A stretch of 64,000 bases of DNA from Dethiosulfovibrio faecalis (GTDB taxonomy: Bacteria > Synergistota > Synergistia > Synergistales > Dethiosulfovibrionaceae), in the NCBI RefSeq assembly GCF_021568795.1, contig NZ_JAKGUE010000001.1, positions 124,001 through 188,000 of the forward strand, written 5' to 3'. Numbering within the stretch: the first letter of the stretch is position 1; the number at the start of each line of letters is the position of its first letter. The translations under genes were made by a program, and so were the position numbers. Under the pieces are notes generated by a model. That model saw only the letters and a program-made list of their open reading frames with translations. It was not told the DNA's origin and made no database searches. Below, one piece after another: positions 43,525 to 56,091 of the stretch.

Positions 43525-44379
43525 ATGATTTCTAAGACGACCATCGGGCCGAGGGCGAGGGGTTTCGCTCTCGCCCTCGCCGTCTTTTTTTTAGCCGAGA
43601 GCCCGTCCTTTTCCGCTTCTCCCTGGAAACTTGCCGTCACCGATCCCTGTCTGGCCTCCATGGCGTCCTTTTTGGGGGGGGTAAACCTTTCCGTAGTGCC
43701 TCTCTCCGGTTGGGACGACGGGAAATTTGTCCGGTACAGGATAAAGAGGGACGATATGCCGGATAGGGCCCTGTGTCTGGACAGGTCGGACGGTAAAAAA
43801 TATGGGCTATCACTGGAATCTGCCGGAGTAGCCGTCCTCTACAGCGATTTTCCCGCCGACCGTCCCACAGAAGAGATCTTCTCCGATCCGGCCTCTCTGC
43901 CTTTCATGGGACAGAGAGTTTTGGTAGCCATAGCCGACCTTGATCCCGATGGCTACAGTTACTACCAGCGTCGCCTGGCGGAGTTTCAGAGTAGGCTGGA
44001 CAGCACGGTGTCTATGGGGAGACAGCTTTTGAGAGGTGCCAGGGTCCTCAGTCTCTCCGGATCCTCTGACTTGCTTTTCTCTGCGGCCGGATGCGTGGTG
44101 GAATCTCCTACGGGGGACATGGTGTCTCAACTTGCCGGGATCCTTCCGGCAAAAAAAGACAGCGGAAAGAAAGACCTAGTCAAGATCTTGACCTCATGGA
44201 AGGAAGGATACGATGCGGTGTTGGTCGACCATCTATCCGATCCAACTCTGATAGATGTCGCTTGCAAAATCTCCGGGTTCGTATGGATGGATCCATTGAC
44301 GGCGGAGACCGATCCGGTCGAGGTTTTGAACGACCGGTATCTTGCCCTGTGGAACGTCCTCAGATCCAAGGAAAAATGA
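43525..44379 (+). CDS. Secreted protein resembling a degenerate metal-ABC binding protein
   Basis: The 284-residue product has a signal peptide (ARGFALALAVFFLAESPSFSA) and a two-lobe layout weakly like ZnuA/TroA: WKLAVTDPCLASMASFLGG, VLYSDFP, ADLDPDGYSYYQRRLAEFQSRLDS (the usual helix after the metal site), VLSLSGSSDLLFSAAG and the end WMDPLTAETDPVEVLNDRYLALWN. The histidines expected at the metal site are missing and no ABC partners are nearby. The ATG has no good ribosome site, and a strong terminator-like hairpin with eight T lies within its first 25 codons. Function unknown; family assignment is tentative. Confidence 0.55.
   Translation: MISKTTIGPRARGFALALAVFFLAESPSFSASPWKLAVTDPCLASMASFLGGVNLSVVPLSGWDDGKFVRYRIKRDDMPDRALCLDRSDGKKYGLSLESAGVAVLYSDFPADRPTEEIFSDPASLPFMGQRVLVAIADLDPDGYSYYQRRLAEFQSRLDSTVSMGRQLLRGARVLSLSGSSDLLFSAAGCVVESPTGDMVSQLAGILPAKKDSGKKDLVKILTSWKEGYDAVLVDHLSDPTLIDVACKISGFVWMDPLTAETDPVEVLNDRYLALWNVLRSKEK
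43547..43592 (+). terminator. Terminator of the pyr operon, inside the next coding region
   Basis: GGC-GAGGGCGAG and CTCGCCCTC-GCC (one bulged base) followed after 3 bases by eight T. It lies 30 bases after the pyrE stop and codes for part of the following signal peptide (GPRARGFALALAVFF). Confidence 0.8.
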
Positions 44380-44409
44380 GAGCTTCCCGGACCAGTCCGG
44401 GAAGCTCTC
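44378..44409 (-). terminator. Bidirectional terminator between the secreted protein gene and selD
   Basis: GAGAGCTTCCCGGA, loop of four, TCCGGGAAGCTCTC: a perfect 14-bp stem. On the minus strand it is followed by ATTTTT, so it suits selD best; on the plus strand only three T occur. Confidence 0.88.
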
Positions 44410-44412
44410 GGT

Positions 44413-45450
44413 TTAAACTATCTGGATTCTTCCGTCTCCTTCTTTGAAACGTCCTATGACCGTGGCCTTCTCGAAGCCGTTTTCTATTGCCAGCTCCATA
44501 AGCTCCTCACTTTTATCGGGAGGTACGGTCAGGAGAAGCCCTCCGCTGGTCTGAGGATCGAAGAGGAAATCTGCTTTTTCGCCCATCGAATCCAGTCCGT
44601 CCACCCTTCCCTCGTAAAGGGATCTGTTGGTGTATGCTCCTGCGGGAAGAAGTCCCATGGAGGCCAGATTCAGGGCACCGTCCATCAGAGGCAATTTTTC
44701 AGATTCCAGTTCCAGATTTACCTTTTTGCTCGAAAGCATATCTAGGCAGTGACCGGCCAGTCCGAAGCCGGTGACATCGGTGCAGCTCTTGATGGTTTTT
44801 CTCATCGATCGAGGCATCTTCAGTGGCAGATCGTTCAATTTGCTCATCCACTTCGTAGCGTCTTGGGCCCATGCAGGGTCGTCCACCATATCTGCCTTTA
44901 CCGCGGTTGCTATTATGCCGCTTCCCAGGGGTTTGGTCAGTATGAGCAGGTCCCCCGGGTTCGCTCCGGTCGTCTTCCAGAGGGAGTCTCTTTCCACCTC
45001 TCCGAAAACACAGAGCCCGTACTTGGGCTCTTCGTCCTCTACACTGTGTCCCCCCATGAGGAAGGCACCAGAGTCGATTACCTTCGAGTAACCTCCTTCC
45101 ATTACACCCTTTAGGGTATCCAGGGGAAGACAGTTTATGGGGAAGGCGACGATGTTGAGGGCTACGAAAGGTCTGCCCCCCATGGCGAATACGTCGCTTA
45201 TGGCGTTGGCCGCCGCTATCTCTCCCCAGGCTTTGGGATCGTCCACCACGGGGGTTATGAAATCCAGTGTGAGTATACCGACCCTATTCTCGTCTATCTC
45301 CCAAAGAGCAGCGTCCTCTCCGCAGTCCCAGGTCGTTATAAGACGGTCGTCTTCGGGGACTGGAAAGGCCTTCAATACCTCGTTTAGGTCCGCCGGACCT
45401 ATCTTTGCGGCTCAGCCGCTCGTCCTTGACATCTCGGTCAGTCGAGGCAT
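44413..45450 (-). CDS. selD: Selenide, water dikinase, selenocysteine-containing (UGA at codon 13)
   Basis: SelD makes selenophosphate from selenide and ATP. The obvious open frame (from 45375) lacks the catalytic N-terminus. Reading upstream on the minus strand, ATG 45450 (GGAGG 6 bases before) gives MPRLTEMSRTSG, an in-frame TGA at 45414-45412, then AAKIGPADLNEVLKAFP. E. coli SelD has catalytic Cys17 and Lys20; here UGA13 and Lys16 have the same spacing. A stem-loop follows the UGA. So this is a Sec-containing SelD of 345 residues. Later blocks VGILTLDFITPVVDDP and TKPLGSGIIATA are typical. Diverges from prfB. Confidence 0.9.
45385..45414 (-). promoter_or_regulatory. UGA selenocysteine codon and candidate bacterial SECIS in selD
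   Basis: On the minus strand TGA (45414-45412) is followed after 10 bases by TAGGTCC, GGC, GGACCTA (45401-45385), a perfect 7-bp stem or 6-bp stem with a five-base GC-rich loop. Position just behind the UGA is where bacterial SelB-binding hairpins occur. Confidence 0.75.
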
Positions 45451-45487
45451 GGAGACACCTCCTTTTTTATCGCTTATCTTCATGGTG

Positions 45488-45600: not shown

Positions 45601-46696
45601 GTGAATAATATATCCACATCCGCTGTATTGGAGGAACTTCAGGCTCTGCTGTCGGACCTGCAGGAAAGTCTTTGACCTGCCTTCATTAAGAGGCGAAACC
45701 GGCAGACTTCACGAGATAATGGCTTTGCCCGATTTCTGGGGAAGAGACGATGCCCAGCGAATATCCACCGATCTAGCCAGGCTGGAGAACAGGATCTCCT
45801 CTTGGGACAGGATGAGATCCGAGTATCAGGATCTGGTCGTCCTGGCGGAGCTTCTGGACGAGGAGGACGACCAGGAGTTGAAAGCGGAGTTTTCCTCCAG
45901 GTCCGAGAGCCTCTCCAGGTCGATGGAGGCTTTCAGCATGGAGCTTCTCCTGAACGGGGACTACGACGGTAACAACGCTATAATGACAGTCCATGCCGGT
46001 TCCGGAGGGCTGGACTCTCAGGACTGGGCGGAGATGCTATACAGGATGTACCTCCGTTGGTGTGAGTCCAATGACTATAAAACCAAGATCCTGGACTATC
46101 AGAGAGACGAGGAAGGTGGCATCAAAACGGTGACTTTGTTGGTCGAAGGCGATTTCGCCTACGGTTATCTCCAGTCGGAGGTGGGGGTTCATCGTTTGGT
46201 TCGCATATCTCCTTTCGATACCGCGAAAAGAAGACACACCAGTTTCGCCTCGGTAGATGTCGCTCCAGAGCTTCCTGACAACGTCGAGGTGGATATCAGG
46301 ACCGAGGATCTGCGCGTAGACACCTTCCGGTCTAGTGGAGCAGGGGGTCAGCACGTCAATATGACCGATTCGGCGGTTCGCATAACCCATATCCCGACCG
46401 GTATAGTCGTATCCTGTCAGAACGAGCGATCTCAACATATGAACAAGGCGGTGGCGATGCAGGTGCTGAGGGGAAAACTATACGAGAGATCTATGTTGGA
46501 AAGACAGGATGCCCTGGATAGCCTCCATGACAAGAAGGAGATCTCATGGGGCAGCCAGATAAGGTCCTATGTTCTTCACCCCTACACCATGGTCAAGGAT
46601 CATAGGACAGGCGAGGAGACGGGAAATGCCGCTGCGGTCCTGGACGGGGACCTGGAGCGGTTCATCCTGTCCTATCTCAGATGGAGAAAGAGATGA
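45601..46696 (+). CDS. prfB: Peptide chain release factor 2, programmed +1 frameshift
   Basis: RF2 ends translation at UGA and UAA. Frame 1 starts at GTG 45601 (GGAGG upstream), reads 24 codons to CTT, then meets TGA at 45673-45675. A +1 shift resumes at GAC 45674 and runs to 46696, giving 364 residues, normal for RF2. The GGQ peptidyl-hydrolysis motif is present (SSGAGGQHVN), and the codon-recognition region follows. The gene should be annotated as joined segments 45601-45672 and 45674-46696. It lies before the S55-like protease with a 4-base overlap. Confidence 0.96.
45662..45676 (+). promoter_or_regulatory. RF2 autoregulatory frameshift site
   Basis: AGGAAAGTCTTTGAC: a Shine-Dalgarno-like AGGA a few bases before CTT-TGA-C. 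When RF2 is scarce the ribosome pauses at UGA and slips by one base, restoring RF2 synthesis. This is the same CTTTGAC heptamer as in E. coli prfB. Confidence 0.93.
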
Positions 46697-54789: not shown

Positions 54790-56091
54790 ATGATCGGTCG
54801 TTATGAGACTGAGGATATGCGCGGGATATGGTCCTTGGAAAACCAGTATAGAAGCTGGATGGAGGTAGAACTGGCGGTCTGTAAGGCCTGGTGCGATCTG
54901 GGAGTCATTCCGAAAGACGCACTTGAGGAGATCGAGACGAAAAGCGATTTCGACGTGGACAGGATCGCCGCTATAGAGGCGGAGGTTCATCACGATGTCA
55001 TAGCCTTCGTGACGGATATGGCCTCACAGGTAGGTCCTAGCGGCAGGTACATCCATCTTGGACTCACCAGCAGCGACGTACTCGACACAGCCAGCGCCCT
55101 GAGACTGAGACAGGCTCTGGATGTCGTGGTGAAGCAACTGGACTCGCTTTGCGATGCCGTGTGGAAACTGGCCGACGGGCATCGTCATACCCCCTGTGTA
55201 GGAAGATCTCACGGCATCCATGCCGAGCCTACGACTTTCGGTCTCAAGGTATTGAACTGGTACTCGGAGCTTATGAGGGATAGGGAGAGACTTATCTCCG
55301 CCAGGGAGAATATCGGCTACGGAAAGCTTTCCGGAGCCGTGGGAACCTTCGCCCATAGTTCCCCTGAGTTCGAGGAGAAGGTCTGCGCTTCCCTCTATCT
55401 GAAGGCCGATCCGGTGTCGACCCAGGTGGTCCAGAGGGATAGGCACGCTCAGGTCTCCTACGCTCTGTCGAGCTTGGGCTGCGCCATGGAGAGGATCTCC
55501 ACCGAGATACGCCATCTTCAGAGGACCGAGGTATTGGAGGTTCTCGAACCCTTCGGCAGCAAGCAGAAGGGCTCCTCCGCCATGCCTCACAAGAAAAACC
55601 CCATACTCTGCGAGAGGATAACCGGCATGTCCCGTCTCCTCAGATCCTATCATCTTGCCGCCCTCGAGAACGTGGCCCTGTGGCACGAGAGAGACATAAG
55701 CCATTCTTCGGTGGAGCGTATCGCCTGGCCCGACTCGTTTCATCTGGTCCATTATATGGAAAAACTTCTACAGAGGGTAGTATTAGGGCTCACGGTGAAG
55801 GCCGACAACATGAGACGCAATCTCGACCTTACCAAAGGACTTGTCTTCAGTCAGAGGGTGCTGCTGCAGTTGGTCGAGCGTTTTGGTCTGAGCAGAGAGG
55901 CGGCCTACTCGGTGGTCCAGTCGAACGCCATGAGGTGCTGGGATGGGGAGGGTGCCTTCATCGATCTTCTCTGGAAAGACGAGAGGATCAATGGAGCTCT
56001 CGAAAGGGAGGAGTTGGAGGAGTTATTCTCCGAGGACTATTATTTCCGTCACGTCGATTCGGTGTTCGATAGATTCCCCAGTAGGGAATAA
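54790..56091 (+). CDS. purB: Adenylosuccinate lyase
   Basis: PurB acts twice in purine synthesis. The 433-residue protein has the family signature GSSAMPHKKNPILCERI and HLGLTSSDVLDTASALR, GRSHGIHAEPTTFGLK and the early EVHHDVIAFV. It follows the orphan gene at 5 bases. PurR (window start) may control it elsewhere, but no pur box is visible. Confidence 0.95.
   Translation: MIGRYETEDMRGIWSLENQYRSWMEVELAVCKAWCDLGVIPKDALEEIETKSDFDVDRIAAIEAEVHHDVIAFVTDMASQVGPSGRYIHLGLTSSDVLDTASALRLRQALDVVVKQLDSLCDAVWKLADGHRHTPCVGRSHGIHAEPTTFGLKVLNWYSELMRDRERLISARENIGYGKLSGAVGTFAHSSPEFEEKVCASLYLKADPVSTQVVQRDRHAQVSYALSSLGCAMERISTEIRHLQRTEVLEVLEPFGSKQKGSSAMPHKKNPILCERITGMSRLLRSYHLAALENVALWHERDISHSSVERIAWPDSFHLVHYMEKLLQRVVLGLTVKADNMRRNLDLTKGLVFSQRVLLQLVERFGLSREAAYSVVQSNAMRCWDGEGAFIDLLWKDERINGALEREELEELFSEDYYFRHVDSVFDRFPSRE

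Follow-up and report, generated by a model that had tools for sequence, protein, structure and literature searches.

In bacteria, selenophosphate synthetase (SelD) is a familiar member of the selenocysteine (Sec)-containing proteins. Zhang et al. (2006, PMC1794560) tabulated 38 bacterial SelD selenoproteins and named FdhA and SelD as the most widespread bacterial selenoproteins, while SelD is elsewhere given as the second most expansive bacterial selenoprotein family (PMC13188914) and as one of the five most widespread selenoproteins (PMC9312934); its evolution is covered in PMC4561486. The Synergistetes are furthermore described as a selenoprotein-rich phylum in which 13 of the 14 sequenced organisms are able to use Sec (PMC5029168), all of this as far as the available parts of these papers go. 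The selD gene of Dethiosulfovibrio faecalis described here resembles the Sec-containing family, as presented in the available part of PMC1794560, in carrying UGA at the position of the catalytic Cys and in belonging to a Sec-decoding bacterium, and differs from it in nothing essential, only in the organism. Since SelD is a widespread Sec family (PMC13188914, in part) and the phylum is rich in selenoproteins (PMC5029168, in part), this is already-known biology: a Sec-containing SelD is a well-known bacterial arrangement, expected in this phylum, and raises no new question on Sec decoding. What the locus offers is a corrected gene start, the true start being missed by mechanical open reading frame (ORF) calling, and, for specialists, a clear case of a SECIS element that becomes visible through silent-site conservation.

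The gene lies in a stretch of 64,000 nucleotides (the window, C1:124001-188000) of a 2.67 Mb genome that is 99.74% complete. The features at selD are as follows, in window coordinates:

44413..45450, minus strand: selD, 345 codons, with UGA codon 13 predicted to be read as Sec; TIGR00476 match
45412..45414, minus strand: the putative Sec codon UGA (codon 13), opposite the catalytic Cys when aligned to solved SelD chains
45385..45401, minus strand: candidate SECIS hairpin UAGGUCC-GGC-GGACCUA, a 7-bp stem with a GGC loop that lies 17 nt after the UGA
45458..45463, minus strand: AGGAGG ribosome-binding site, predicted from sequence, 7 nt before ATG 45450
44378..44409, minus strand: terminator-like hairpin directly 3' of selD, 14 pairs, 9 of them GC, with a T tail

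Read with TGA as Sec, 44413-45450 on the minus strand gives a single protein of 345 residues containing one TGA only, at codon 13, just as the original prediction of a SelD selenoprotein had it. Its two further statements on the gene start, that automatic calls would begin at 45375 and that an in-frame ATG with a good ribosome site lies upstream, hold as well: the SelD frame of the mechanical ORF list, the one list to which this refers, begins at TTG 45375 (320 aa), and AGGAGG stands 7 bases before ATG 45450. A second in-frame ATG at 45483 has no AGGAGG-type site before it and is absent from the close relatives L020 and L021. When the window was scanned for frames of at least 150 codons that follow a TGA and are preceded, still in open frame before this TGA, by a start codon with an AGGAG or GGAGG site, exactly two frames passed, namely selD and a frame at 55446 on the minus strand. 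The latter belongs to a TGA-joined frame pair at 55026-55446 (minus) of 140 and 161 codons, with AGGAG or GGAGG before the upstream start.

The identity of the enzyme is clear from its full-length match to the curated SelD model NCBIfam TIGR00476, which covers residues 3-313 at 328.9 bits against a cut-off of 125. Alignment with the solved Cys-type SelD chains 3u0o and 2yye runs from residue 3 and places U13 opposite their Cys and K16 opposite the Lys three residues further on, so that the two types are alike in this spacing, whereas the Cys of the solved chains is replaced by Sec in the D. faecalis protein as read here. Counted along the alignment, the catalytic Cys of 3u0o, which we take to be E. 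coli SelD, is residue 17; the TGA had indeed been placed at Cys17 of the E. coli enzyme, with the conserved Lys three residues later. TIGR00476 finds five matches in the genome, one of them over the cut-off. The two next-best were considered as a second SelD and dismissed, since both fall short of the cut-off and ThiL or HypE models give them higher scores. With all four other matches below the cut-off, the gene described here is the only selD of the genome.

Across Synergistota, SelD was matched at E<=1e-20 in 123 of 185 genomes (127 matches in all), which leaves 62 genomes without a match at this E-value. One TGA is present in 118 of the matches and nine are free of stops. The Sec site could be read in 110 of the 127 matches, where TGA occurs 104 times and TGC six times, i.e., Sec or Cys is encoded at every site; the nine stop-free matches comprise these six TGC rows and three that begin past the Sec site. 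The check that homologues carry Cys or Sec here, which had been proposed together with the N-terminal alignment, thus came out in favor of the reading, and the contrary outcome, homologues with neither residue, was not encountered. Among named GTDB genomes, a near-relative search rather than a census, TGA occupies the Sec site in 54 of 54 loci found, of which eight are named Synergistales, Synergistaceae, or Acetomicrobium and 46 are others, mostly clostridial and deltaproteobacterial. The residues flanking the site (RLTE..SGUAAKIGP) are conserved among relatives, and other Synergistota SelD genes share both the Sec codon and a nearly identical hairpin GGUCCGGCGGACC, with the exception of six distant members of family f8 with Cys. 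These six (L122-L127) carry their Cys in GGCGAKIG at 40-42% identity, which suggests a separate SelD lineage within family f8. Two genomes hold two SelD matches each, G137 (L115, L116) and G070 (L092, L119), and the Sec site reads TGA in each of the four; these could be real duplicates or assembly contamination. A plasmid search (167 records) gave matches under 60% identity only.

The genes for Sec synthesis and insertion are found in the same genome, two of them just outside the window:

C1:118959-120308: selA, just outside the window, beside selB; 556.9 bits (cut-off 267.9)
C1:120353-122230: selB, just outside the window, beside selA; 357.7 bits (cut-off 242.25)
C1:230164-230258: tRNA-Sec, anticodon TCA (UCA); 68.8 bits (gathering score 47)

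Both selA and selB occur once in the genome and adjoin each other. The SelA/SelB/SelC system that the original prediction took to be implied by selD is therefore present at the level of its genes, and a lack of selB or tRNA-Sec, named beforehand as the contrary result, is excluded. Also outside the window, yedF (selenium metabolism, TIGR03527, 184 bits; L018:6125-6757, minus) adjoins selA on the opposite strand. Further genes of the genome contain in-frame TGA codons: two GrdA genes have one TGA each, and of the four GrdB (PF07355) matches, three, counted with the weakest left out, meet a TGA beyond which the frame stays open for 87-89 codons.

Downstream of the selD UGA, the predicted stem-loop starting 10 bases past the codon was found as a 7-bp hairpin with a GGC loop at 45401-45385; this 17-base element, TAGGTCC-GGC-GGACCTA, has one copy in the window and none in 100 shuffles, and it fits the bSECIS constraints printed in the available part of PMC13188914. 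Synonymous conservation was scored over 184 codon columns in 30 full genes, that of the window together with those of 29 relatives. The codons forming the hairpin, 17-21 (I, G, P, A, D), rank 1-5 of the 184 with scores of 0.70-1.00 against a median of 0.04 (uncorrected for kinship, which bears on all columns alike), while codons 14-16 and 22-26 lie near background in the same genes. Codon usage within the hairpin is accordingly narrow: GGT and CCG in 30 of 30 genes each, GCG in 22 of 22 Ala rows, GAC in 29 of 30, and ATA in 27 of 30. Constraint at the RNA level is thus apparent in its silent sites and, since no other of the 184 columns reaches the synonymous conservation of the five codons that build it, the hairpin itself looks to be selected as RNA. 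Folding energy alone failed to single it out where silent-site conservation did: its free energy is not outstanding (z -1.54 for the hairpin by itself, -0.77 within 51 nt, and -0.89 within 106 nt), and in the 51-nt context another fold wins.

This unremarkable free energy counts against the Sec reading of the gene, as do details of the pairing. Among the 104 rows with TGA, the individual inner pairs of the stem, six in number, form in 83, 100, 86, 99, 101, and 102 rows, respectively, but all six together in only 74. The third of these, pair 14-24 (86 of 104 rows), shows 16 G-G mismatches, and its compensatory change from G-C to C-G, seen in seven of the 104 rows, is confined to family f8. The window, the reversed window, and the Sec codons of GrdA and GrdB were also scanned for TGA with a GGN-loop hairpin behind it. 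In favor of the reading, this gave two matches in the window, with selD as the best, and none in the reversed window, and caught the Sec codon in all three GrdB genes tested; the second match in the window, a TGA at 107 on the minus strand, has a frame of 34 residues and is regarded as fortuitous. The scan missed the Sec codons of both GrdA genes of the genome, which weighs against the reading. The three GrdB genes (L129, L130, L131) have a SECIS-like hairpin with the geometry seen in selD (7 bp, loop GGT, 18 nt after the UGA).

The hallmarks of a bacterial selenoprotein gene, i.e., UGA at the position of a homologous Cys, a SECIS hairpin downstream, and genes for SelA, SelB, and tRNA-Sec, come together here, and the gene almost certainly encodes the Sec form of SelD, with its UGA decoded via SelB and the hairpin. 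Very probably, the enzyme itself contains selenium. By analogy with described bacterial systems, ribosomes would initiate at ATG 45450 and reach the UGA at codon 13, where SelB with Sec-tRNA-Sec, bound to the hairpin 10 bases downstream, would insert Sec in place of an RF2-mediated stop. In the resulting 345-residue protein, Sec13 and Lys16 would sit in a mobile N-terminal loop and produce selenophosphate from selenide and ATP, which SelA may then turn into Sec-tRNA, including the tRNA for the synthesis of SelD itself. SelB-dependent insertion, catalysis by Sec13, and the need of SelD for its own synthesis are inferred in this way; with its sole SelD containing UGA, the organism would have to be decoding Sec already in order to make SelD.

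Were the TGA instead a true stop, the gene would be broken and give rise to a shorter protein from TTG 45375 that lacks the catalytic loop. The mechanical ORF does begin there, yet the same TGA stands in 104 of the 110 SelD sites read in the phylum, the flanking residues are conserved as are the silent positions within the hairpin, and the genome has complete Sec machinery; the probability of this explanation is practically negligible. It is also conceivable that the UGA is read by ordinary suppression as an amino acid other than Sec, given that the Sec reading is drawn from the DNA sequence. Against this stand tRNA-Sec(UCA), SelA, SelB, the SECIS-like hairpin, and the other UGA-containing selenoprotein genes, as well as Cys being the alternative residue in the six of 110 sites without TGA, which makes suppression very improbable. 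Decoding of the codon as Sec is thus the reading retained here.

Upstream of selD lies a second gene with an in-frame UGA:

45601..46696, plus strand: prfB (release factor 2), separate from the selD gene; TIGR00020 match, 477.7 bits (cut-off 370)

It starts at GTG 45601, 150 bp from selD and divergent from it, and has its UGA at 45673-45675 in the classical frameshift site CTTTGAC, where a +1 shift is needed to continue into ...ALPDFW. Two kinds of UGA recoding, Sec in selD and the +1 frameshift in prfB, would accordingly lie within about 260 bases. One may imagine the divergent genes as a regulatory pair, both governed at a UGA, in which low RF2 leads to more frameshifting and RF2 synthesis and perhaps to more Sec insertion; if true, termination capacity and selenium use would be linked through the 150 bp that the two genes share. 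We consider this very unlikely. RF2 is reported to be a poor competitor of Sec insertion (PMC4513850, in the available part), which argues against joint regulation of the two genes. A promoter scan of the gap revealed no convincing site, with one 9-of-12 match near prfB and the region near the shuffle rate, and none of the papers listed in a library search on the two genes deals with the pair, as far as their titles and the openings of their abstracts show.

The neighborhood recurs among relatives. Within flanks of roughly 1.5 kb, prfB was found at 14 of 30 selD loci (that of the window, L019, included) and, by coordinates, is divergent in all 14, the frameshift site being detected in 11 of these with a filter that demanded a PDFW or PGFW motif. 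Of the 54 GTDB loci, three have prfB in their flanks, all of them from Synergistota.
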